A stretch of 22,983 nucleotides of DNA, from IMG/VR virus record IMGVR_UViG_3300045135_001970, positions 1-22,983 of that record. One strand, given 5' to 3'. Shown piece after piece: positions 720 to 22,594 of the stretch. The stretch is from a virus. Under the pieces are notes generated by a model. The model had not been told where the DNA came from. It worked only from the letters and a program-made list of their open reading frames with translations, and did no database searches. Position numbers and translations under genes: made by a program. Positions within the stretch are counted from its first letter, which is position 1; every line of letters begins with the position of its first letter.

Positions 720-2758
720 TATTCAAGATCCTCTCTACGACGTGCGGTAACGGTGAAAGACCCAACAGTCTTCATGTTGTTGCCGTACATGTTGACTTCA
801 CAACTCCAGCTGTAACCACGCTTAGAGTCGTCTTCTGTGTAGTATGTTCTAGGAACAATAACTACGCGATTATCGAAGCGGTTAGATACTGCTTTGGCGA
901 TTAACTCGTTAGAGTGTTCTACAAACTCATCAGCCGTTAGCTGTGTATTGCCTGTTAGGTCACGCCAAGTACGTTGACACACTTTCTCTAGTTCAACAGC
1001 AATAGCCATGTTGATTGTAGAGTTAAGGATACTAGTGTCATCGTCATAAACAGTTTGGAAACCAGGGTAGAAGAAGCTACGACGGTTGTACGTCTCACTC
1101 CACGAAAGACCAGCAGCCCAATCCTTATTACGTACGCGCGTACGCTTATACGTATTGTTTAGATTGTTTAGCAACGACACGTGGTTATTACCAGCAATAT
1201 CATAACCAGCACCAGCTCGCATCTCACCATTACCTTGACCCATGAAACGTGCTTGTTTCTGAGCAAAGTCGATAACTTGCGGTACAAGCTTATCGTAGTT
1301 AGAGTTGGTTAGGTAACCAGCCTGCGGGATAATAACCGCACGACAACATGCTGTGCCGTACAATACAGATTCAGGATACATACGTGCTGCTGCACGCAAA
1401 GCAACGCCCATAGAAGAGTCAGCGCTAGCTGTGTTAGCTGGTTCACCATCCGTCTGTGTACTTAGTACCACATATACGTCTTTACGTAGACCGATTGGTG
1501 TTAGTAACTTCTTCTTAGTTTCAATAGAGAAACCAGAATCGTAGATTACTGAGAACGGATACTTAGCATCGTCCATCAGATCTAGTTCATCATTCTCGAA
1601 GTTAGCTACACTGTTACCAACCAACGTATCGAAAGTATCGTTGTCTAGCGTACCATCAGCACCACCTTTAAGGTAGTGTGTAGCACCTTCAGTCAATAGA
1701 ATACCACCCTGTGCAGGACCAACTAGTTCGAAGTTGTCGTATGGAATACCATCAACGTCAACACCACCTACGAAGTTATAGATGTGGCCGTCTTCAACAG
1801 CAACGCCTTCAATAGCAGAACCGACTTCAATCAATGCCGCCTCAACGTTGTCTTTGTATAGGTGTAGCTCGTCACAAGGACCGTATACTGGTGGAAGACC
1901 ACTAGTTGGGTCAACTGCACGATATGAAGATGGTAGTAGCTTACCGAACGAAAGCTCAGCATCTACCTTCTTGTTGATCACACCGTCTTTGAACGAGAAC
2001 TCAACAAACTGTCCGCCAGAAAGCGTACGTGTCGTTACTGGACTAGACTTAGCGTCTGGACGCTCAACGAACTGCAATCGGTATAGATATGCTTCCTGAT
2101 CTAAGATCACTTCATCATCTACAGCAATGCTAGAGTTTAGTGTAGGCGCATAAAAGCGGAAACCGATGTTATCGCCATACATACCCTTGTGACTCGCCGG
2201 TAAGTCCATGATAGGACGTACAACAGATGGAATCATCGGGTCGCTACCTACTAGGTCACCAGCCATAACTACGCCAGAACCTACTAGTTCTCCATCAGGG
2301 ATTTCTTTAACGATCCAGCGTGCTAGAACACCAGGAGCAGTCGCTCCACTAGAAACACGGTCACCGTTGATGTCTAGCTCGTAGGTACCGTCAGGATTAC
2401 GGTTCCATACAGTCAGTTCAGACGGTACTGTTTCAAGACAAAGGCGAAGTCTTGCTTTCTTTGCATCAGCTGCAGTGATACGACGTACCATAAGGGAGTT
2501 ACCCTCGGCATTGATCGTGTTGGCTAATACAGTAGCATGGTTAGCATACTTCGAACGATAGTCGAAGGATTTTGCACCGTAGATACGTGTCAGGTCAGCG
2601 CCAGCAGCTAGTTCTACTGTCTCTGGACCGCGCTCAGTGAAGAGATGCACGTATGGAAGGTGTTGTGGAAGTTCTTCTTGTACGGGTCCAACTTCTCGAC
2701 CGGAAAGGTCCTGGATCCCGTTTAGAATGAACTGTGGAGCTGCGCTCGTCACTGTCAT
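719..2758 (-). CDS. Contractile tail sheath protein
   Basis: A 679-residue protein, close to the roughly 695 residues I recall for the phiKZ sheath gp29. It would form the contractile outer cylinder of the tail, which shortens to drive the tube into the cell. The N-terminal part (about residues 30-100) and the C-terminal part (about 540-679, with LTADEFVEHSNELIAKAV and the closing strand NMKTVGSFTVTARR) have the conserved pattern of sheath core domains: a helix, then strands that end in an arm exchanged between subunits. The middle (about 100-430) is the variable outer domain. An AAGGAGT ribosome site lies about 7 bases upstream of the ATG. The gene overlaps the tube gene by one base. It is transcribed away from the next block out of the palindrome-rich region at 2759-2982. 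Confidence 0.85.
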   Translation of the reverse strand: MTVTSAAPQFILNGIQDLSGREVGPVQEELPQHLPYVHLFTERGPETVELAAGADLTRIYGAKSFDYRSKYANHATVLANTINAEGNSLMVRRITAADAKKARLRLCLETVPSELTVWNRNPDGTYELDINGDRVSSGATAPGVLARWIVKEIPDGELVGSGVVMAGDLVGSDPMIPSVVRPIMDLPASHKGMYGDNIGFRFYAPTLNSSIAVDDEVILDQEAYLYRLQFVERPDAKSSPVTTRTLSGGQFVEFSFKDGVINKKVDAELSFGKLLPSSYRAVDPTSGLPPVYGPCDELHLYKDNVEAALIEVGSAIEGVAVEDGHIYNFVGGVDVDGIPYDNFELVGPAQGGILLTEGATHYLKGGADGTLDNDTFDTLVGNSVANFENDELDLMDDAKYPFSVIYDSGFSIETKKKLLTPIGLRKDVYVVLSTQTDGEPANTASADSSMGVALRAAARMYPESVLYGTACCRAVIIPQAGYLTNSNYDKLVPQVIDFAQKQARFMGQGNGEMRAGAGYDIAGNNHVSLLNNLNNTYKRTRVRNKDWAAGLSWSETYNRRSFFYPGFQTVYDDDTSILNSTINMAIAVELEKVCQRTWRDLTGNTQLTADEFVEHSNELIAKAVSNRFDNRVVIVPRTYYTEDDSKRGYSWSCEVNMYGNNMKTVGSFTVTARRREDLE

Positions 2759-2777
2759 TTTTACGACTCCTTAATGA

Positions 2778-2797
2778 GTGTATGTTATTGCATACAC
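2778..2797. promoter_or_regulatory. Inverted repeat in sheath leader
   Basis: GTGTATG and CATACAC form exact 7-base arms around a 6-base spacer, 20 bases before the sheath start codon. In the sheath mRNA this would fold as a small hairpin just 5' of the ribosome site. As DNA it could be an operator. No function is shown. Confidence 0.5.
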
Positions 2798-2803
2798 GTT
2801 CGA

Positions 2804-2823
2804 TTTTAATTAGCTAATTAAAA
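2804..2823. promoter_or_regulatory. 20-base perfect AT-rich palindrome
   Basis: TTTTAATTAGCTAATTAAAA is a perfect palindrome with no spacer, in the gap between the divergent sheath operon and the virion-protein operon. Its symmetry and place suggest a protein-binding site or part of a promoter for the sheath mRNA. An AT-rich sequence makes partial symmetry more likely by chance, but 10 of 10 matched pairs is notable. Confidence 0.5.
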
Positions 2824-2864
2824 CAATTATGTTTGTAACGCACCATACTAAGAATCTATCGTCC

Positions 2865-2878
2865 TTGGCGGCCGCCAA
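2865..2878. promoter_or_regulatory. 14-base GC-rich palindrome
   Basis: TTGGCGGCCGCCAA is a perfect palindrome and a sharp GC-rich island in an otherwise AT-rich control region. It sits between the divergent genes, upstream of the AT-rich stretch that probably holds the plus-strand promoter (2879-2960, with TATATA and TATG-like words). It could be an operator; no family of binding protein can be named. Confidence 0.4.
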
Positions 2879-2982
2879 TGGTATATATCCGATGTAAAAA
2901 AATACGTTACATATTGATATGGGTATTTAGATACGTAATGTATACTCTTACTACAAACATGAAAGAAAGAGGACTAGTGAAA

Positions 2983-3897
2983 ATGCTTAAGAACTCATAC
3001 GACACAACGACAGGATCGCTATTCGAAATGGGTAGAGTGATTCGTGGTATTAAGGAAGACTCTATCCGTGGTCATCTAAGTACCGTAAGTGAGCTACTAC
3101 CAGACTCACCTAAGGTAATGAAGAAGGTTCGAGTGTTGGTGGATACCGAATCTAAAACCCCAGCCTTTTATCATCCCATCAAAGTAGACGATAATATCGT
3201 GATCGATGGTAGAACATATTTAGCTGGGCGTGGTCCTGATTCCACCATCCGTGTGAAGGATGAGGGGGGTTTGAAACTACTAGCCCTTCGCGCAGCTCTG
3301 GAGCTGATCTATTCGGACGATGACTATTCTCCACTATATCGCGTATCTGATGTTCCAATGTTTGTATTCGTTAGCTGGTTTGCTGAGAACATCAGTGGTA
3401 GATTAGGACTGGATCCAGATAGTCAATTAAAGGTAACGGTGGCGGCCGCTTACTACTACTATTCAATCCATACGAAGGATGCTGCTTGGAATGACGAACT
3501 GCGTGTTAAAGTAGCTAGCAGACTAGCCAACATAACTAAGATTCCTGTGGCCAATAGTCTAGAGATTGCCAGAGACCTAAACTATATAGATGATCTAGAA
3601 AACTTTGTTGGTAGAATTAAGACCCTTACGGGCAGTACACGACTAGCCGACCTGAACGTAGGTACACTAATTACGATGTTATCCTCCACTGCAGGCTGGC
3701 ACGGGGTGCAGGCTAAAGAGACGGTAGCTATTGGTCTAGAGCACCCACCTACATGGCACGCTCTTATGTATACCGCAATTAATGAAAAGAACTACACAAG
3801 AACTAGATTATCTAAGCAGGTGCAAAGATATCGAGGTAGAGGTAGTAGTGAAGATTATGTTCGTGCATTACTGCATCAACTAAGTGACCACGAATAA
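2983..3897 (+). CDS. Probable virion protein (phiKZ gp28-position)
   Basis: I chose ATG 2983, which gives 304 residues, because AGAGGAC lies 9 bases before it. The frame stays open upstream to 2878, but that extension (rich in Y, I and R) is AT-rich leader without a ribosome site. The protein is soluble. It has a beta-rich first third (about 45-95, with GRTYLAGRGPDSTIRVKDEG), then a mostly helical part. A polyaromatic AAAYYYYSI lies near residue 160 and a basic, arginine-rich end sits near 275-295. It is the first gene of a plus-strand run ending in the terminase. In phiKZ, the genes between sheath and terminase encode particle proteins, so a structural role is inferred from position only. 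Confidence 0.55.
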   Translation: MLKNSYDTTTGSLFEMGRVIRGIKEDSIRGHLSTVSELLPDSPKVMKKVRVLVDTESKTPAFYHPIKVDDNIVIDGRTYLAGRGPDSTIRVKDEGGLKLLALRAALELIYSDDDYSPLYRVSDVPMFVFVSWFAENISGRLGLDPDSQLKVTVAAAYYYYSIHTKDAAWNDELRVKVASRLANITKIPVANSLEIARDLNYIDDLENFVGRIKTLTGSTRLADLNVGTLITMLSSTAGWHGVQAKETVAIGLEHPPTWHALMYTAINEKNYTRTRLSKQVQRYRGRGSSEDYVRALLHQLSDHE

Positions 3898-13495: not shown

Positions 13496-14074
13496 ATGTC
13501 GGTTAAACTAAGGTTAGATTCTAATGTTGCCGGAGTTAAAGTTTTTGATGATGGTACCGGCGAGCTTATATGTAGCTTTTATGAACCTAAGGTAGGTACT
13601 AGTGGGGCTACCACATTCTTCTGTATACATGACGGAACACTAAAGGTCATGTACTTGGATATCCCAAAAAGTGGACTACTCAGTGACGTTGAGAAAGCTG
13701 AGTTTGTTTCAGGACTAGTGGAATCCATTAATAAACTAGACGACCATAGTAGTCTATTGGTGACGTCCTACTCGTGGTCAGATATACACCTAATCGAGTC
13801 CCCGGATACCCTACTAATAAAGTCTGGAAATAGTACCCTCTTTAAGATAGGTAGAGATACTAGCACTAAGGGTCCGCTAGTGCCATTCCCAGACAATACC
13901 ACTGGTATACTAGAAGATGCCATCGTGGGTGAAGTAATTTCCAATAGAGTGAACATGGATATGTTCCTACATAGCGTGTACAGCTTAATCAGAACAGCCA
14001 GTGATCCGCGATTGGAACACATGGAGCCTCCTTTTGCAGCAACTCCTACATCCTTCACCATCACCATACATTAG
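13496..14074 (+). CDS. Unrecognised protein, 192 residues
   Basis: The start is ATG 13496, with AAGGGG about 7 bases before it. The frame is open from 13460, but that would place the start inside the terminator hairpin and its T-run, so it is rejected. The protein begins MSVKLRLDSNVAGVKVFDDG and has a beta-rich N-terminal half, a helix near 75-90 and a second helix near 148-170, ending in a strand (TSFTITIH). No motif is recognised. It follows the terminator with no long leader, so its transcription depends on read-through or a promoter in the T-run region. Its last four bases overlap the end of the convergent minus-strand gene. Confidence 0.6.
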   Translation: MSVKLRLDSNVAGVKVFDDGTGELICSFYEPKVGTSGATTFFCIHDGTLKVMYLDIPKSGLLSDVEKAEFVSGLVESINKLDDHSSLLVTSYSWSDIHLIESPDTLLIKSGNSTLFKIGRDTSTKGPLVPFPDNTTGILEDAIVGEVISNRVNMDMFLHSVYSLIRTASDPRLEHMEPPFAATPTSFTITIH

Positions 14075-14859
14075 AAGGACGTCAACTTGAGTGCGCGATT
14101 GTATGCTGGCCTATCGTCCATGAAAGCTATCTTAGTCCACTTGGTCTCTAGGTATTCATCATACAACTCATTTGAGTCGGCATAGCTCTCTACCACATCC
14201 TTGAACTTACCTAACTCAGCACCACCATGTAAGACGCCGCTATCCATGGGTATTATGGTATTGGTATGTATCCACGCTTTAACAGCTAGTAGTACTAGCT
14301 TTGAAAATGCTTTGTATGTGGTAACGTTTAGGTTACTCATATTAGCGTCATTACTCAGCGTAACCTTTACGGACCCTACAAACCCATCGCCACCTAGATC
14401 TTTGATAGAGATAGTGTTGTCACCGATGATAGATACCTCGGCGCTATTGTTTGGTGTAGACGTCAACGCGGCGTCTGCCATCTTGTGTGCGGCACTAGAT
14501 AATGTAGAGCTACCACCCATTCCAGATAAGTACCCATTGTTTTCCACATGGTCAAAGTTTACCGAGTGCACTGCGGTAATACTTTTGTTCTGCGTTAGGT
14601 GTTTGGGGATTTTATACACCAATGTAGTGCCATCGTTGAAGATGGGTTTTAAATTACTGAGTTCGATATAATCTTGAACACCACCCACGATGTTACAGTC
14701 TTCTATAACTCTAGCATCTATAACCTTCTCTCTAATTACCGATTCCAAAGAAACAGGGTATCTTAGACTACCATAATGTGACCCTACAAAGGCATAATGG
14801 AGTACCTCTTTGGGTATGTTGAATTGAACATCTTTGATAGCTTTATCTATTGCGTTCAT
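14071..14859 (-). CDS. Unrecognised protein, 262 residues
   Basis: AAGAGG lies about 12 bases before the ATG. The protein is soluble, with an N-terminal helix-rich part and a glycine/serine-rich section (about residues 110-130: NNGYLSGMGGSSTLSSAAHK). A beta-rich section (140-180) and a C-terminal helical part follow. No catalytic motif, signal peptide or membrane helix is seen. The gene is divergent from phuZ across 143 bases and convergent, by a 4-base overlap, with the 192-residue gene. Being on the strand of the sheath and tube genes, it may be a late virion gene; this is only a guess from orientation. Confidence 0.6.
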   Translation of the reverse strand: MNAIDKAIKDVQFNIPKEVLHYAFVGSHYGSLRYPVSLESVIREKVIDARVIEDCNIVGGVQDYIELSNLKPIFNDGTTLVYKIPKHLTQNKSITAVHSVNFDHVENNGYLSGMGGSSTLSSAAHKMADAALTSTPNNSAEVSIIGDNTISIKDLGGDGFVGSVKVTLSNDANMSNLNVTTYKAFSKLVLLAVKAWIHTNTIIPMDSGVLHGGAELGKFKDVVESYADSNELYDEYLETKWTKIAFMDDRPAYNRALKLTSF

Positions 14860-15002: not shown

Positions 15003-15305
15003 ATGAAAAATGGTACTATTCGTATTTACGGTTGTGGCGGAGCAGGCACAAACATCGCGCAGCAATTCTTCGGTCTAGAGGAAGACCCGAACTTTGCTGA
15101 AATCAAAACCACTATCATCGACACTAGTCGTTCTAACCTACATGGTGGTATTCCTGACGAAGCATGCTTCATCTTACCTGACGTTGATGGTAGCGGTAAG
15201 GTTCGTAAAGAAAACCATGAAGAGATTGCCAAGTCTATCAAACCGATCCTGGTCAAACACCAACCTGAATCTTTAAATATTGTAGTGTTCTCTACAGCCG
15301 GTGGT
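15003..15305 (+). CDS. phuZ: Phage tubulin PhuZ, exon 1 (residues 1-101)
   Basis: AAGGA lies 9 bases before the ATG. Exon 1 has the tubulin/FtsZ T1 loop GCGGAGTN (residues 10-17) and a T3-like IIDTSRSN (38-45). It ends at NIVVFSTAGG, the strand and first glycines of the GTP-binding signature. Unspliced, the frame reads only seven more codons (KQAKAA-stop at 15326), giving a 107-residue fragment without GTPase activity. After splicing to exon 2 the protein is 321 residues, near the roughly 315 of the PhuZ from phage 201phi2-1. PhuZ forms GTP-driven filaments that centre the phage nucleus and transport capsids. The splice boundary is inferred from the IGS pairing (exon GGT with intron GCC at 15329-15331) and from the protein alignment. 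Confidence 0.85.
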
Positions 15306-15601
15306 AAACAAGCTAAAGCAGCTTAAATGCCTCGTCTAAGGGTGACCTTAGATTGTGCGTCTCCTAACTGCGGGGATCTCCTTAGAGTTCTATAGTACTA
15401 CTTACAACTAGAAATAGATTGTAATACCTACTCCAATAATGGAAGCAGTAGGCATAGTAAAAACCTATAGAAATTGGACAATCCGCATCGAAGTTCCTAA
15501 GCCTACGGGTATGGAATGTGATCAACGACTAACCCATTCACCAGGGTGTAGGGGTCAAGTGACCTCGAAATGGAGACATCTTTCAGACCATTAAAATAAA
15601 C

Positions 15602-15630
15602 TACCCTATTCTCGTGGGGAGAATAGGGTA
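15602..15630 (+). other. 12-pair stem-loop inside intron, before its ORF
   Basis: TACCCTATTCTC and GAGAATAGGGTA pair perfectly around GTGGG. It lies in the P8-side insertion between the ribozyme core and the ribosome site of the intron ORF. No T-run follows. It may insulate the ORF from the ribozyme fold. Confidence 0.6.
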
Positions 15631-15651
15631 CCAACAGATAAGGATTAATAT

Positions 15652-15876
15652 GTGGCTGTGCTATCTAGTAGAGCTGCCCTAGCAGCCATAACTAAAACCT
15701 ATAGGATCAACTTCGGTGATCATAATGAGGTGGTGTTTGGAGCCTATGAACTACTAAGGCGACTGAACATAACCTGTAGTAAACCATTGGCTAAAATAAC
15801 TGCGGCCGATGTGAACGTAATCCTCAACACACCCCACATCAGTGTTGAACGATTAAATTATAGTCTGAAAGAATAA
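15652..15876 (+). CDS. Intron-internal ORF, 74 residues, unknown
   Basis: The start is GTG 15652, with AAGGA (15640-15644) seven bases upstream. The overlapping ATG 15650 gives only ten residues. The ORF sits between the two P7 strands, the usual place for homing endonuclease genes in phage group I introns, and its TAA stop directly abuts the P7 3' element. The protein (ending VERLNYSLKE) has no HNH, GIY-YIG, LAGLIDADG or zinc-finger pattern. It looks like two helical stretches with a short beta-strand part. It could be an eroded endonuclease, an accessory splicing protein, or a freeloader gene. The ribosome site argues that it is expressed. Confidence 0.6.
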   Translation: MAVLSSRAALAAITKTYRINFGDHNEVVFGAYELLRRLNITCSKPLAKITAADVNVILNTPHISVERLNYSLKE

Positions 15877-15956
15877 GATATAGTCTCGCCTCTATGTGAA
15901 AGCATAGAGCTGGGTTCGTCCCGGTTCTAGAGTAACGACCTAGAATGAAGATAGCG

Positions 15957-16619
15957 ACAGGGTCAGTCTCTGGACCACTATTCATTAAAGAACTACTTGA
16001 TCGTGACGTACCTACAGTAGGTGTTGTAATCGGTGCTTCTGACTGTGCGACTACGTGTAAGAATACACTAGATACGTTGAAGTCCCTGGATAGAATTGCT
16101 CTTGCTACAAAATCACCAGTTGTTATTACCTATTTAGATAACAACGATTTTGACAACCGTAGTAAGGTGGATATTTTAGCCACTAAGACTATCTCAGCAC
16201 TATCTGCTTTAGTAGCGCCAAACAACAAGGAGTTAGATAGTCGCGACATCTCCACTTGGATCAACTTCAATCGCGTATCCTCCATTGAACCTCAGTTGGT
16301 TACGTTATCCGTATACAACGAGCATGATGAGATCGATGAGTCTAACGAGGCTGTTTCTGTGGCTACACTGTTGCGTAATTACGATAGTGCGGCACCCAAG
16401 TTAAATGCAGATTACAGTACTGTGGGTTATCGCACGGAAGAGTCAAACGATGGTCCGGACATCACATGCGTGATTGAGTTAGGTAAGGTTCCTAAGATCC
16501 ATTCATCAGTGTTGGAACGTAAGTCGAAGTTCGAAGAGTTAGAGGAGTCACGTTCGCGTGGGCGCTACTCCATCTCTGGTGACGATGATGACGTTACAGA
16601 TAGCTGCCTAGTGCTGTAA
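15957..16619 (+). CDS. phuZ: Phage tubulin PhuZ, exon 2 (residues 102-321)
   Basis: Exon 2 begins TGSVSGPLFIKELL. Joined to STAGG it gives AGGTGSVSGPLFIKEL, which aligns without gaps to the tubulin signature GGGTGSGMGTLLISKI. Then come the strand VPTVGVVIGAS and a T5/T6 region, and the T7 catalytic loop LDSRDIST with D195 and D198, spaced as in the PhuZ catalytic pair (D187/D190 in 201phi2-1). The chain ends in an acidic tail, SGDDDDVTDSCLVL; in known PhuZ proteins such a tail contacts the next subunit in the filament. An ATG at 15945 lies in the intron tail and keeps this frame open, so a routine gene call would report a separate 224-residue protein. I see no ribosome site before it. An 11-pair hairpin follows. 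Confidence 0.85.
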   Translation, partial: TGSVSGPLFIKELLDRDVPTVGVVIGASDCATTCKNTLDTLKSLDRIALATKSPVVITYLDNNDFDNRSKVDILATKTISALSALVAPNNKELDSRDISTWINFNRVSSIEPQLVTLSVYNEHDEIDESNEAVSVATLLRNYDSAAPKLNADYSTVGYRTEESNDGPDITCVIELGKVPKIHSSVLERKSKFEELEESRSRGRYSISGDDDDVTDSCLVL

Positions 16620-16751: not shown

Positions 16752-16768
16752 GTGAAGTCCCTAAGAAT

Positions 16769-16779
16769 AAAAGGAGGTG
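16769..16779 (+). promoter_or_regulatory. Strong ribosome binding site that decides a TTG start
   Basis: AAAAGGAGGTG is the strongest Shine-Dalgarno match I noticed in the window. It is 7 bases before TTG 16785. It lies inside the longer frame that begins at GTG 16752, so it rules against that upstream start. Confidence 0.8.
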
Positions 16780-16784
16780 TGATT

Positions 16785-17177
16785 TTGGAAAGCTATACAT
16801 TAATATTTGATAGCCTTGAGATACGCAGGCATCTGTCGCAACACTTAACCACTTTAGTGAGAGGATACAGATATAGTCTTGAGCAGGCTAGACGGTGGCA
16901 TAGTGACCAACTACACGGTTTGATAGCACAGTCATTGTTGCGTGTGTATGGGGTAGAATGCAATAGATCCATTACGGCTACCTGTCCTAGGGTAGAATCT
17001 AAGATAAATAATGACGCATTGGATGAGTTAGATCGATTGGTGTTCAGTGTCATAAGAATACCAGCTGGGTTCTCGCCACATATAGAACTGAAGGTACATA
17101 GCGATGTAGTTGTGATTACCGGCTACTATACAGCACAACAGTCTAATCAATATCCAAACAATCCTACTAGTGTGTAA
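16785..17177 (+). CDS. Small-array protein 1, unknown
   Basis: A 130-residue protein from TTG 16785. It begins with a short strand (SYTLIFDS), a helix (LEIRRHLSQHLTTLVRG) and a second long helix. It closes with a helix (DALDELDRLVFSVI) and then a hydrophobic strand after a short turn (HSDVVVITGYY). That order (strand, helices, helix, turn with G/S-D, strand of V/I) recurs in the next six genes, although sequence identity is very low. No catalytic or membrane feature is seen. It opens the array after the probable promoter. Function unknown. Confidence 0.7.
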   Translation: MESYTLIFDSLEIRRHLSQHLTTLVRGYRYSLEQARRWHSDQLHGLIAQSLLRVYGVECNRSITATCPRVESKINNDALDELDRLVFSVIRIPAGFSPHIELKVHSDVVVITGYYTAQQSNQYPNNPTSV

Positions 17178-17192
17178 GGACAGAGAACAATA

Positions 17193-17621
17193 ATGAATAA
17201 ACTAATATTGCCTACAAGAGAACTAGCGGAGATGCTGGCTTCGTCTAGTAAGGATTTTTTTACACCACACGGATTAGATATACCGCCTCTAAAGTCTTGG
17301 ATAGATATACTAGAAGTGGCCGTTTCTGATTACTTTCATACGCGCTGTAAGTGGAATGATAGTGGTAAGACTCTTCTACCAGCCACACTCAGAGAGAAGT
17401 TCGAGTGGTTTGATGAGGCGTGTGACTTCTCAAATTGCTGGTATATGGAAGTGTTTGATCCGTTCGACCTAAGGATTATGGAGCTTTTAAATAAAGTAGG
17501 GGGACTTACAGGTTGGGAAGAATGGTCTATCAGTGTAGTAGCTGGCGACCTAGTGGTGGTGATTCAGGAGGATCACCGTATCTTAGAATGGCATAGACAG
17601 AATGGTGTTCCGTATGAGTAA
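17193..17621 (+). CDS. Small-array protein 2, unknown
   Basis: A 142-residue acidic protein, 15 bases after the previous stop, with AAGGA some 12 bases before the ATG. Layout: strand and helix at the start (LILPTRELAEMLASS), a proline turn then helix (DIPPLKSWIDILEVAVSDYF), and a tryptophan-rich middle. A late helix (LRIMELLNKVGGLTGW) leads to the closing strand VVAGDLVVVIQED. The last part is the clearest form of the motif shared along the array. It overlaps the next gene. No family recognised. Confidence 0.7.
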   Translation: MNKLILPTRELAEMLASSSKDFFTPHGLDIPPLKSWIDILEVAVSDYFHTRCKWNDSGKTLLPATLREKFEWFDEACDFSNCWYMEVFDPFDLRIMELLNKVGGLTGWEEWSISVVAGDLVVVIQEDHRILEWHRQNGVPYE

Positions 17622-18090
17622 GACATACTTAATATCTCTTGCAGCACTTGAAAGGGAGCTTAGGGATGTACTTAGACAGAATGTAAAACCATCTACTCTA
17701 GCCGACGTAATAAATATCTACCCTATAATAGACGACATTTTACTTCAGCAGATATACGGTAATATACCTAGAGAGATGTTGAATGAGGACGCATTCTCTA
17801 TGTTGTCGCACTATAGACTACCCCCTGATAGAATATTGTCAGTAATAGAGCTACTTAAATCCACCTTAAACTCGACGATAGAAAGAACGATCGGTGGTTT
17901 GACTAGGTGGTCCGATTACGACTATCAGATGGTGGCTGGCTGTACTTTAATTCTTACAGACAATGGTGATGGTAGGGATAGACTGATTGCGGAACTACAA
18001 AGAAAGTTAAGTGAGAGAGAATTAGAACATGGCGATGCATTCGAAAAGCTTTACGGGAGAAGGGAGTGTAATCCTACCTATAGTAGATAA
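17614..18090 (+). CDS. Small-array protein 3, unknown
   Basis: 158 residues from ATG 17614, which overlaps the previous stop by 8 bases; ATG 17602 in the same frame would add four residues, and neither has a good ribosome site, as expected for coupled translation. Layout: strand and helix (TYLISLAALERELRDVL), proline then helix (KPSTLADVINIYPIIDDIL), late helix (SVIELLKSTLNSTIERTIGG), then YDYQMVAGCTLILTDNG. It carries an extra charged C-terminal helix (about 125-150) absent from its neighbours. The last 62 bases overlap the next gene. Confidence 0.65.
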   Translation: MSKTYLISLAALERELRDVLRQNVKPSTLADVINIYPIIDDILLQQIYGNIPREMLNEDAFSMLSHYRLPPDRILSVIELLKSTLNSTIERTIGGLTRWSDYDYQMVAGCTLILTDNGDGRDRLIAELQRKLSERELEHGDAFEKLYGRRECNPTYSR

Positions 18091-18457
18091 ATGGATTTTC
18101 CAAGATAGTGTCTTAACTGAACTGGATGACCTAGGTCATAGTCCGGAAGATTTAATTGCTGATGTTGTTCAGATATGGCTTACCATGAGAACAGCCTCGT
18201 GTTCACCTCGGAGCGTAGAGGAGGTGGTGTCAATGACACTACCTGAGTATATGTACGACCTCGTTGTGTTCAATTTGGATACTTACAGATCTCTTGAATG
18301 TATGGTGGTTAAAGCAGTTAAGGAATACCTACCTATCTTGGATAGGGTATTTATAAACCCCATGGATTTATTCCAGCTGTATTTTGAAAGTTTTTGCGGG
18401 GACGGAATAGTACTTGTTGCTGAGTATGGAGGAATGAATGATAAGCTGGGTTGTTAG
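18029..18457 (+). CDS. Small-array protein 4, unknown
   Basis: 142 residues from ATG 18029, overlapping the previous gene by 62 bases. The long overlap and the weak GAGAGA ribosome site leave the start uncertain. GGAGAAGGGAG at 18055-18065 looks like a ribosome site, but no standard start codon in this frame follows it. The protein has proline-helix (HSPEDLIADVVQIWLTM), late helix (ECMVVKAVKEYLPILDRVF) and closing strand (CGDGIVLVAEYGG), matching the array pattern. Acidic and soluble. Confidence 0.6.
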   Translation: MAMHSKSFTGEGSVILPIVDKWIFQDSVLTELDDLGHSPEDLIADVVQIWLTMRTASCSPRSVEEVVSMTLPEYMYDLVVFNLDTYRSLECMVVKAVKEYLPILDRVFINPMDLFQLYFESFCGDGIVLVAEYGGMNDKLGC

Positions 18458-18782
18458 TACTGAATTACTTTGGTTTATGATGGATGATAAGTCGGAAGAA
18501 CTACCGTTAAACTGTTTTCACGATACGGATATATTAGAGCACGCAATACAGACAGCGGTGACTGGAGTGGAATCTGTTAATGATAGGGAATTGTTGTTTG
18601 AGATATGTGGACTATCTAAAGACGGAGAGGGTATGTCTTTCCTTAGTTCTAAGTTAGGTGAGTTCATTGATGAACTTATAGAGGCGACTGAGTTGATACT
18701 GGAGAGATCTTTGGGTGTGTATGCTTTTGAGACATACGACTACGATTGGATGGGTAGAGACATTATTGTGTCTACAGAATAA
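18438..18782 (+). CDS. Small-array protein 5, unknown
   Basis: 114 residues from ATG 18438, with TGGAGGA 5 bases upstream inside the end of the previous gene, so the start is coupled to it. The N-terminal strand (ISWVVSTELLWFM) is followed by a helix (DTDILEHAIQTAVTGVE), a late helix (FIDELIEATELILERSLGVY) and a closing strand (WMGRDIIVSTE). Strongly acidic. It fits the array pattern and is the shortest member. Confidence 0.65.
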   Translation: MISWVVSTELLWFMMDDKSEELPLNCFHDTDILEHAIQTAVTGVESVNDRELLFEICGLSKDGEGMSFLSSKLGEFIDELIEATELILERSLGVYAFETYDYDWMGRDIIVSTE

Positions 18783-18797
18783 CTAGATGAGGTGGTT

Positions 18798-19175
18798 ATG
18801 TACGAATTCGAATCGCCTCATGCGGGTGAAAGACTCATTACTCTTGAAACCTCTACCATATTGGTGGAGTTAGAAGAACGACTCTATGGGCTGGAGTACT
18901 TCGAATACGACCTCCCTGAACTCATGTCTATTTTAGTGGAGGCTATCTCCATAAACCCAAACCACACTCCTGATGGTAGGGAAGACTATCTTACCCGATA
19001 CATTAGTGCTTACTGTACAGTGGCTGACACCGAACATTCTGTAATGTGCGTGATGTTGACCTTCGTGAGAAAGGTTGAGGCCAGACTTTGGTTATTGGGA
19101 CTTGCTAAGGGTAGTGAAGTGGTGAGGTTTGTTGGGTTGTCTGGTAAGGATATAATGGTTGGAGTCAGTGGATGA
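18798..19175 (+). CDS. Small-array protein 6, unknown
   Basis: 125 residues from ATG 18798; GAGG is 5 bases upstream, which favours it over GTG 18792. It has a helix (STILVELEERLYGLEYF), an exact proline-helix (YDLPELMSILVEAISI), a late helix (MLTFVRKVEARLWLLGLA) and a closing strand (LSGKDIMVGVSG). The D-x-P-x-L form here is close to that of array protein 2. The stop overlaps the next start (ATGA). Confidence 0.65.
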   Translation: MYEFESPHAGERLITLETSTILVELEERLYGLEYFEYDLPELMSILVEAISINPNHTPDGREDYLTRYISAYCTVADTEHSVMCVMLTFVRKVEARLWLLGLAKGSEVVRFVGLSGKDIMVGVSG

Positions 19176-19934: not shown

Positions 19935-20378
19935 TTGGCTGATTTTAAAATAACCACAGGAAACATCTTCGACAGTAAGGCGGATGCACTAGTGTGTCCC
20001 GTCAACTGTGTTGGTGTGATGGGTAAAGGACTAGCCTTATCATTTAAACGTAAGTTTCCAGGACTCCATGAGAACTATAGTCGAGCCTGCGAGGAAGGAG
20101 GATTTACCATAGGATCCATTCACGCCTATGAGTCTTTAAATAGGGTAATACTATCCCTACCTACTAAACTACACTGGAGAAACCCTAGTGAGGTGGAGTA
20201 CGTGAGGGATGGGTTAAAGGGACTGGTCGCCGCTACACGTAGTCTTAACATTAAATCCATAGCGTTACCTATGTTAGGGTGTGGTTGTGGTGGACTTGAC
20301 TTTGATCTGGATGTATATCCACTAATGGTGGATATTCTTTCGAGTACTGACCTCGACTATGAGATTTATGTAAACTAA
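19935..20378 (+). CDS. DarG-type macrodomain ADP-ribosyl hydrolase
   Basis: 147 residues from TTG 19935, with GAGGT 7 bases upstream. It is a complete single macrodomain. TTGNIFDSKADALVCPVNCV (8-27) holds the adenine-binding acidic position and the N of the NCVGVMGKG loop. ILSLPTKLHWRNPS (72-85) carries K78 at the place of the catalytic lysine of Thermus DarG. IALPMLGCGCGGLDF is the diphosphate-binding loop. DarG removes ADP-ribose from DNA modified by the toxin DarT; this protein lacks the second, DarT-binding domain of DarG. The likely role is to reverse DarT-type host defence or other ADP-ribosylation. Appr-1''-phosphate processing is a weaker alternative. It precedes a strong terminator. 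Confidence 0.88.
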   Translation: MADFKITTGNIFDSKADALVCPVNCVGVMGKGLALSFKRKFPGLHENYSRACEEGGFTIGSIHAYESLNRVILSLPTKLHWRNPSEVEYVRDGLKGLVAATRSLNIKSIALPMLGCGCGGLDFDLDVYPLMVDILSSTDLDYEIYVN

Positions 20379-20464: not shown

Positions 20465-22594
20465 ATGATGAATTTGTTCCACCTAGACCCTACAGAATAT
20501 GTGCGTGATTTCAATATCCGATCCAATTACGTAGAAGACACCAGTTTTTATATCTCCACCATGACCGACGCTCCTTTGGATGAGGTTAGGGATTTTACTG
20601 TAGAAAAGTTAAAGGACGGTACATTCAACGTAGTGGATCCAGAGGTACTAGTAACAAATAGAGCACCTAATGGTGATAGAAGTTTACATCAAACAACATT
20701 TAGCGAATACCTCCACCATATCGAATCAAATGGACACATCGTTAGTCCTTCAGGTACGGTCTACACCAATCCGAACATAGAGAGATCTTACTTATCGAAG
20801 TATATCGAAGGTAATATAGACAAGCGGAATAAGGTAAAACATTTAAAGTTTGTCAGGAAGCAAGAGGGTGACAAACAGGGCGCACAAGACGCCGATAGAC
20901 TACAGTCAACCTTTAAGGTTAAAAACAATTCCTTATCCGGCGCACATGCCTCAAAGGGTACTATGTTATTTAACCTATCTAACCACCCTACTTTAACAAG
21001 TACTTGTTGTAGTACTACCAGTTACGCCAACGCCAACAATGAGCGTTTTCTTTTTGGAAATAGACACTACTACCATCCTGACGTAGCCATGGATAACATA
21101 GTGTCTGTTGTTAGAAACGCAGACATGGACTTAATACATAAGGCTATAGAAGAGTACGACCTAGTGTGTCCTACTGTAGAGCAGGTTTGTGAGTCCGTAT
21201 ACGAGTCATGCAAGTATTACTTCCGTGACGCTGAATTCATAGAGTATAGAGTTAAACCATTCCTGGAGAAGCTCACTCCGGAACAACTGGCTGCATATTA
21301 CTACAGTAACAACTTTAAGGCACTTAGAGATCTTAATGAGAAGTTCGTATGGGACTTCCTAGACAAACTGAGCACACAATCCCACAGTAGAGTGGATGAT
21401 CCTGAGAAGGTCATCTCATCTGCGGATGGCGACCTTATGGCTTACATTGGTGTACTATGTATGGACATCACTCGTGGTACTACATTAAAGGCCGTATCTA
21501 AGAACAATCCAGAAGGCTACAATACCATCGCATCTACCATCCTCACTGTGACAGAGACACTAGAGTCGTATAGAACCTTGATTAGAGCGTTTTGGGTAAC
21601 TAAGAGTCAGCCATCGAATATGGCTGCATTTAGTAGTGCGGTCAGAAAGGGAGTGGTTGTTTCGGATACAGACTCAACCATCTTTACACTACAGGAATGG
21701 GTCATTTGGTTCGAAGGTAAGTTAAGTTTCAGTGATAAGGCCGTAAAAATATCCGCAGCTTTAACATACATCGTCTCAATGTGTACTATTCACCTATTAG
21801 CTAACATGTCAGCTAGTATCGGTGTGGTGAGTGAGAAGCTCTTTCAGATAGCCATGAAGAATGAATTCCTGATGCCTGTCGTCATAATGACTAGTAGAGG
21901 TAAGCACTATACTTACTACAATTCAGTGTGTGAAGGTAACGTATACGAGGAACTGGATTTTGTTACAAAAGGTGTTGGTCTGAAGAACTCCAAACTACCA
22001 AAGCATGTGATCAATAGGCTGGAGGAGTTTATTAAGGCTATTATGGACACCATTATGGCTGAACAACCAGTGTCCTTAGAGTGGGCTGTGAAGTATGCGG
22101 GAGATATAGAGAGGGAGATTTATAGGTCTTTGGCAGACGGAGAGATTGACTACTTGAGTATGGGTAGAATTAATCCTAGATCTAACTATAAGAACCCTAC
22201 AGCATCGGCATTTGTCTATGATGAGATATGGAATAAAGGCTTCTCTGGTAAGTATGGCCCAGCCCCAGAACCTACCTATAGTACAGTTAAAGTAAATCTA
22301 ACTACTGGCTCTAAGACGAAAGTTAGTGCTTGGCTAGAGTCCATTGAGGATATAGAGTTGAGGGATAGTATCCAAACAGCCTTGGGTGATCATGGTAGAC
22401 TAGATGGGTTTCCTACTATGCAGATACCGTTGGAGATTGCTGTGTCCTCCGGCATCCCTAAAGAGCTCAGAGGCATTATCGACTCTAGAGAACTAGTGGC
22501 CACAACTATGGATGGCTATTACCTAATCCTAGAGTCTCTGGGTATCTACGCCAACGATGGTCAAAGACAGCGATTGGTGTCTGATGACTACTAG
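20465..22594 (+). CDS. Family B DNA polymerase, palm/fingers half (split enzyme)
   Basis: 709 residues; ATG 20465 (or 20468) follows CAGG, and an in-frame stop lies two codons upstream, so the chain starts here. Motifs in order: the motif A region at the very N-terminus (LDPTEY, then RDFNI, residues 7-18, with D8 the candidate metal ligand); NGHIVSPSGTVY (89-100); motif B K151..NS(155-156)..G159; motif C SDTDS (400-404, with D401 and D403 the metal ligands); K480-H-Y482 and TKG (501-503) as in the thumb-side KxY and KG motifs. The 3'-5' exonuclease and N-terminal domains are missing and must be encoded elsewhere. Motifs B and C are about 245 residues apart, against about 60 in RB69, so there is a large insertion. 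It replicates phage DNA, in phiKZ-type phages inside the phage nucleus. Confidence 0.85.
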   Translation: MMNLFHLDPTEYVRDFNIRSNYVEDTSFYISTMTDAPLDEVRDFTVEKLKDGTFNVVDPEVLVTNRAPNGDRSLHQTTFSEYLHHIESNGHIVSPSGTVYTNPNIERSYLSKYIEGNIDKRNKVKHLKFVRKQEGDKQGAQDADRLQSTFKVKNNSLSGAHASKGTMLFNLSNHPTLTSTCCSTTSYANANNERFLFGNRHYYHPDVAMDNIVSVVRNADMDLIHKAIEEYDLVCPTVEQVCESVYESCKYYFRDAEFIEYRVKPFLEKLTPEQLAAYYYSNNFKALRDLNEKFVWDFLDKLSTQSHSRVDDPEKVISSADGDLMAYIGVLCMDITRGTTLKAVSKNNPEGYNTIASTILTVTETLESYRTLIRAFWVTKSQPSNMAAFSSAVRKGVVVSDTDSTIFTLQEWVIWFEGKLSFSDKAVKISAALTYIVSMCTIHLLANMSASIGVVSEKLFQIAMKNEFLMPVVIMTSRGKHYTYYNSVCEGNVYEELDFVTKGVGLKNSKLPKHVINRLEEFIKAIMDTIMAEQPVSLEWAVKYAGDIEREIYRSLADGEIDYLSMGRINPRSNYKNPTASAFVYDEIWNKGFSGKYGPAPEPTYSTVKVNLTTGSKTKVSAWLESIEDIELRDSIQTALGDHGRLDGFPTMQIPLEIAVSSGIPKELRGIIDSRELVATTMDGYYLILESLGIYANDGQRQRLVSDDY

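Follow-up and report, generated by a model that had tools for sequence, protein, structure and literature searches.

The window analysed here is a 22,983-base fragment from a virus collection, and phuZ copy number is visible within that stretch only. Typed by gene content, the window phage is of the jumbo type. Two plus-strand reading frames with homology to phage tubulin lie on either side of a predicted intron:

15003..15305, plus strand: phuZ exon 1, 101 codons, ending FSTAGG; matches phrog_4733 positions 2-101, E 2.1e-30
15306..15956, plus strand: group I intron, 651 bases, phase 0, last base G15956; RF00028 match 15314-15908
15957..16619, plus strand: phuZ exon 2, 220 codons plus stop, beginning TGSVSGPL; matches phrog_4733 positions 101-322, E 1.3e-48

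The first-pass annotation had read the two frames as one PhuZ split at 15305/15957, and the alignments bear this out. In PHROG family 4733 ('tubulin PhuZ', 323 positions), the exon 1 match ends and the exon 2 match starts at column 101, so that the two sets of columns abut. Joining the exons gives 101 + 220 = 321 residues with AGG/TGS restored and aligned with the relatives; near full-length coverage of the phrog_4733 profile and the GTP-binding signature, on which the PhuZ identity rests, are both present. Exon 2 also matches Pfam TubZ_C_2 (43.1 bits against a cut-off of 27), and solved phage tubulins match both exons (3zbp, 9pm9) or additionally exon 2 (3r4v, 3j5v). When aligned with the seven continuous PhuZ proteins of phages LucasX, Eowyn, pEa_SNUABM_54, AH06, RVTF4, PhiPA3 and DT01, the two halves abut at GG/[ST]G with a gap of 0 and an overlap of 0. 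By local tblastn, exon 1 ends and exon 2 starts on adjacent bases in 7/7 of these phages, whose phuZ genes are all uninterrupted at exactly the window junction. These sequence comparisons strongly support a single PhuZ gene with a group I intron inserted in its GTP-binding signature.

The same annotation had proposed a 651-base group I intron between the frames. Its coordinates are exact, its named elements (P2 with a GUGA loop, P4, P7 GACTA/TAGTC and P9-P9.2) are present, and the covariance-model search that it suggested as a check returns RF00028 at 62.1 bits, above the cut-off of 50 (E 8.8e-14, full model 1-253). Nothing else in the window reaches an Rfam gathering score. The helices are arranged as follows:

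15299..15334, plus strand: P1, exon CGG-U-GGU with intron GCC-UCG, U15305 facing G15329 (RNAfold)
15335..15352, plus strand: P2, UCUAAGG/CCUUAGA with a GUGA loop
15359..15577, plus strand: P3 enclosing P4, P5, P6 and the P7 5' strand; P3 15359-15364 with 15572-15577, P4 15369-15373 with 15483-15487
15527..15531, plus strand: P7 5' strand GACTA, pairing with TAGTC at 15881-15885; paired changes in two other split phuZ genes (L022 and L046, below)
15579..15872, plus strand: P8, 15579-15587 with 15864-15872, 9/9 pairs; the loop carries the intron ORF
15881..15945, plus strand: P7 3' strand (15881-15885), P9 (15890-15909), P9.1 (15910-15924) and P9.2 (15925-15945)

With strands chosen by eye after the Rfam match, pairing is complete for P3 (6/6), P4 (5/5), P7 (5/5) and P8 (9/9), giving the pseudoknotted P3-P7 core together with P4-P6 and P8. 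The consensus fold, made with no subgroup model, places hairpins between 15532 and 15571, that is, between P7 and P3. Extra P7.1/P7.2 hairpins in this position are a feature of subgroup IA. At the splice sites, U15305 lies opposite the guide G15329 in the predicted helix, and the intron terminates in G15956. The P1 model is weak: the element shared by all three phuZ introns described below is GGUA/UGCC only, and the remaining exon side differs. An inner hairpin that closes the P1 stem (AAGCU/AGCUU, 15310-15314/15320-15324) recurs with different letters in the two other introns. No P10 was seen in the window intron.

In two distant phages, L022 (IMGVR_UViG_3300013103_000022) and L046 (IMGVR_UViG_3300001594_000002), phuZ is interrupted between the same two codons. 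In all three genes the 5' exon ends in GGTGGT and the intron starts with AAAC, and the intron 3' end is TGAANATARCG or nearly so in each. P7 reads GACTA/TAGTC, GATCA/TGATC and GACCA/TGGTC in the three introns and is fully paired every time. P8, P9 and P9.2 are likewise fully paired in all three with differing letters, and the GUGA loop of P2 is present in L022, L046 and the terminase intron of a further IMG/VR contig, L067. Some helices as typed are imperfect (L022 P4, 1/6 ungapped; L022 P7.1/2, 4/6; L046 P3, 4/5; L046 P9.1, 5/6). Two other contigs repeat this junction and layout, and P7 is kept by paired changes, so the arrangement in the window is more than chance; the recurrence of the split also makes mis-assembly of the fragment unlikely. 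Rfam gives no group I call for the L022 phuZ intron even at E 1 and only 36.1 and 36.7 bits, below threshold, for that of L046, so the group I status of these two introns rests on homology and layout.

These observations bear on whether the two frames could be independent genes, the split PhuZ being made as two assembling polypeptides and the intron-like RNA being a dead relic. Both halves do have start codons (ATG 15003 and, in the frame of exon 2, ATG 15945), and an in-frame start lies 12 bases 5' of exon 2 in 3/3 split genes (ATG in the window, TTG and ATG in the others). That start codon is sufficiently explained as part of the shared intron end, and by eye no clear ribosome site precedes 15945. 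On its own, neither half would have the complete GTP-binding signature; the exons meet exactly, in frame as well as in position, and the helices of the window ribozyme are intact. Read unspliced, the exon 1 frame meets a stop after 6 intron codons in the window, 4 in L022 and 7 in L046. We regard the two-gene explanation as barely credible.

The P8 loop of the window intron holds an ORF that was absent from the first-pass annotation, with a hairpin upstream of it:

15602..15630, plus strand: 12-bp hairpin, by eye, 5' of the ribosome-site-like AAGGA (15640-15644) of the intron ORF
15652..15876, plus strand: intron ORF (ORF74) of 74 codons, starting with GTG; corresponds to the C-terminal end of a NUMOD4-HNH homing endonuclease and lacks the catalytic part

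In L022 and L046 the P8 loops contain ORFs of 409 and 411 residues, respectively, which are 39% identical to each other. The L046 protein matches NUMOD4 (2.2e-11), HNH_3 (1.4e-8) and NUMOD1 (4.9e-6), all over the Pfam cut-offs. That of L022 matches NUMOD4 above the cut-off and HNH PHROGs to 3.9e-32, with HNH_3 at 14.6 bits, under its cut-off of 24.8. By these domain matches, each of the two introns carries a full-length homing-endonuclease gene of the NUMOD4-HNH type, and by eye each gene has a hairpin at the position equivalent to that in the window, followed by AAGGA or AAGGAG.

ORF74 aligns without gaps to L046 endonuclease residues 341-408 (32% identity, E 4e-10) and to L022 endonuclease residues 349-408 (E 9e-6; both BLASTP). 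Its alignment scores exceed the shuffled maxima for both proteins (96 against 52 for L046, 74 against 54 for L022; 0/2000 shuffles each), which argues against a random frame; the other five frames score 20-32, i.e. background. The next best of 190 stop-free window stretches of at least 40 residues scores 39 when compared with the final 75 residues of L046's endonuclease. ORF74 shares 22/72 and 20/73 residues with the two endonucleases, and these share 19/71 with each other over the same stretch; its divergence from them does not exceed that between the full-length genes, which points to a recent deletion or to continuing constraint on the ORF. No Pfam family matches ORF74 even at E 10 and no PHROG family does, leaving it with neither a NUMOD4 nor an HNH assignment, and tblastn against phage records gives one match only, at E 7. 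An unrelated small gene was rejected on the grounds of homology to the two sister-intron endonucleases, found only there. On this evidence, ORF74 is a relic of a NUMOD4-HNH homing endonuclease and not a member of the family. Fold comparison did not provide an identity: the AlphaFold2 model (mean pLDDT 71.9) gave weak matches in either library, none below 0.001, with I-HmuI at rank 4 against the PDB (E 2.4), and the predicted model of the full L046 endonuclease was unusable (pLDDT 37.7).

The endonuclease C-terminus is narrowly distributed. A search of 50,697 phage records at E 0.1 with the C-terminal 169 residues of the L046 protein found no match. Among four contigs searched with its last 72 residues, matches occur in its own contig and at two places in the L022 contig, and none in the L013 and L060 contigs. 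A third relative of the endonuclease, L075, aligns over residues 1-102 only and lies on a 5.4-kb contig without phuZ. Common descent of the three introns from one phuZ-homing intron would rest on this shared C-terminus. A more far-reaching reading is a homing lineage specialised for the phuZ G-box and targeted through the endonuclease C-terminus, with ORF74 retained to act alone as a DNA-binding protein (such as an intron-gene repressor or a homing-site occupant) and not mere debris; we think this unlikely. Separately, the L022 contig contains a second stretch resembling the endonuclease C-terminus (G003:C1:8967-9128, E 1.8e-4).

Most of the phuZ loci sampled are uninterrupted. A profile scan of IMG/VR (alignment A3) yielded 40 loci, 38 of which have frames open through the junction; the 2/40 that are split are L046 and L065, the latter being the same contig as L022. 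LucasX PhuZ matched 185 of 50,697 phage records, at one place each (coverage below 80% in 36/185), and the 60 of these 185 matches that were listed are all in one piece, with no split phuZ. No second phuZ was found beyond the split copy in the 164.6-kb contig of L046, which is possibly incomplete. Single-protein scans of IMG/VR found no relative with the window exon 2 and DNA polymerase queries and one relative with the terminase query. Of two tight DNA patterns derived from the intron, one matched the L022 contig only and the other matched the L022 contig and L067.

To place the split genes, we used a PhuZ tree of 42 hand-picked rows, one per gene (7 named phages, 32 uninterrupted IMG/VR genes and 3 split genes). 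Repeat contigs were omitted (L024, L026, L027, L029, L030, L044, L045, L053, L055, L056, L059, L063, L065 and L066), as were copies, namely L037, L048, L049, L051 and L052, whose translations agree over 840 coding bases on either side of the junction taken together, and L032, which is identical. The three split genes are scattered, with three changes on the tree, and form one clade in 0/200 bootstrap trees. Constraining them to one clade is rejected (p 3.7e-63 for all three, 2.8e-59 for the window and L046). Two of the split genes each have a continuous gene as sister: L013 for the window (98/93) and L060 for L046 (100/98). The tree program (treekit) warned of long branches for L023, L022, L010 and L007, with L007 meeting L022, and of odd composition in L022, whose long branch is accordingly placed with little certainty. 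Since the three split genes form no single PhuZ clade, the site has probably been invaded more than once, and repeated entry is the likely history on this sequence evidence.

The competing history is an ancient insertion into an ancestral phuZ, followed by many losses and no horizontal movement. An identical junction in all three split genes would be expected from it, and change counts on the tree cannot separate gain from loss. The scatter of the split genes speaks against it, as does the retention of a full-length endonuclease in two of three introns. In addition, the intron 5' cores are far more alike than the exon DNA. For the window against L022, blastn gives E 3e-27 for the intron 5' core and 0.010 for the joined-exon DNA; the corresponding values against L046 are 3e-14 and 0.03. 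The window intron is 76.9% identical to that of L022 over 143 bases (E 3e-25 when compared with the whole L022 locus). Constraint on the ribozyme inflates this contrast and may explain part of it. An ancient intron is, in our judgment, improbable. A tree of nine intron 5' ribozyme cores has 0 supported branches and does not unite the three phuZ introns, so that a single ribozyme clade for them is unsupported; because, in addition, the L022 core is nearest to a terminase intron, the RNA does not demonstrate a single phuZ-specific intron lineage.

Taken as a whole, the evidence makes it highly probable that the window contains a homing-derived group I intron at the tubulin G-box that has lost its nuclease and probably still splices. 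The precursor RNA would fold into the ribozyme, guanosine would attack after U15305, and ligation of U15305 to A15957 would yield the 321-residue PhuZ; splicing is proposed here from anatomy, together with the known chemistry of group I introns. The intron would have arrived by homing, as its sister introns with a full-length endonuclease in the P8 loop suggest, and its endonuclease gene would since have been shortened to the last 74 codons. With the gene so reduced, this copy should be unable to home alone, yet able to splice. Insertion in an invariant glycine-rich motif means that imprecise loss of the intron would spoil PhuZ, which is how such sites are usually explained (PMC12908238). The same review notes a preference of introns for conserved residues of essential genes.

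The first-pass annotation had gone further and proposed that splicing governs the timing of PhuZ production. Position in a conserved gene is the one feature in this analysis that would suit such a regulatory switch; in addition, nucleus-forming phages uncouple transcription from translation (PMC12908238, available portion), which could give the RNA time to fold. The intron is absent, however, from 38/40 IMG/VR loci and from the 7 named phages, including L013 and L060, the nearest PhuZ relatives of the window and of L046, and the window element has the anatomy of an ordinary mobile intron with an endonuclease remnant. The timer proposal thus found no support, and we consider a regulatory role very improbable.

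A close known parallel to the window intron is provided by the group I introns of PhiPA3, which like the window phage carries PhuZ. Its own phuZ is continuous, and its introns sit in RNA polymerase and helicase genes, whereas the window intron is in phuZ. The PhiPA3 intron cores are 73-75% identical to the window core over about 105 bases, the RNA polymerase intron (55005-55454) at 73.3% over 105 bases, and the helicase-region intron scores 83.1 bits with RF00028. Two papers (PMC10449902 and PMC10643120) describe this RNA polymerase intron as lying between the two halves of one protein; by analogy, this supports the splicing reading of the window intron. The endonuclease gp210, of the HNH type, lies inside an intron of an RNA polymerase gene, and PhiKZ is inhibited by gp210 once it is imported into the PhiKZ nucleus (both PMC11620839). 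PhiPA3 gp210 is a whole endonuclease, whereas the window ORF is a remnant.

Related introns also interrupt the gene for the terminase large subunit, in contrast to phuZ in the window. The L067 terminase intron is 80.6% identical to the window core over 139 bases and 79.8% identical to the L022 phuZ core over 267 bases, and that of Shewanella phage KASIA is 71.6% identical to the L022 phuZ intron. The KASIA annotation places an HNH gene inside the span of the joined terminase gene; no ORF was seen in P8 of the L067 intron, which has no Rfam match at gathering score. In L067 the terminase large subunit is present in two halves around this ORF-less group I-like intron at about 2690-3140, and one half matches window terminase residues 1-248, the other the residues from 247 onwards.

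Classical mobile group I introns occupy conserved codons in phages T4 (td, nrdB, sunY), Twort and SPO1, and some of them have degenerate endonuclease genes. Their host genes are other than phuZ.

In the open-licence papers searched, as far as their accessible text goes, we found no report of an intron in a phage tubulin gene. As far as these searches reach, this would be the first example of an intron in a tubulin gene of a bacterial virus, by a mechanism that is itself known. Three PhuZ lineages have an intron at the same phuZ codon junction, and one endonuclease type appears at two stages, whole in L022 and L046 and reduced to its tail in the window. Gene finders would report two short proteins or no intact PhuZ at such loci, which matters where PhuZ presence is scored. 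Besides RNA polymerase, phuZ offers a second target gene on which to ask whether intron endonucleases serve as weapons between co-infecting nucleus-forming phages.

Several further features were noted in these contigs. In L022, another group I intron lies on the minus strand at 1026-1325 (RF00028, 74.3 bits), adjoining a minus-strand ORF at 1332-2213 that is ribonucleotide reductase-like by eye. The PhiPA3 segment from 113.7-119.8 kb (L011) has a group I intron match at 2872-3165 (83.1 bits); since the 'putative endonuclease' 133 (2907-3209) falls mostly inside this match, its annotation is doubtful. In the window, phuZ is followed on its 3' side by a run of seven ORFs without a family match. 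Two adjacent small ORFs (17193-17621 and 17602-18090) are mutually similar (score 54, 0/300 shuffles); a single paralogous family of the small ORFs at 16752-19172 was rejected, as 17193/17602 is the only one of 21 pairs that beats all 300 shuffles. A macro-domain protein with a TTG start (19935-20378; PF01661, E 1.5e-14; PHROG 'phosphatase') has as its neighbour a divergent DNA polymerase of family B (20465-22594). On the other side of phuZ, a divergent neighbour on the minus strand at 14071-14859 encodes a DUF7484 protein (E 2.4e-79). Opposite-strand genes of similar size occur shortly 5' of phuZ in LucasX (with one gene between), Eowyn, pEa_SNUABM_54 and AH06, and the DUF7484 gene is perhaps a conserved neighbour of phuZ.
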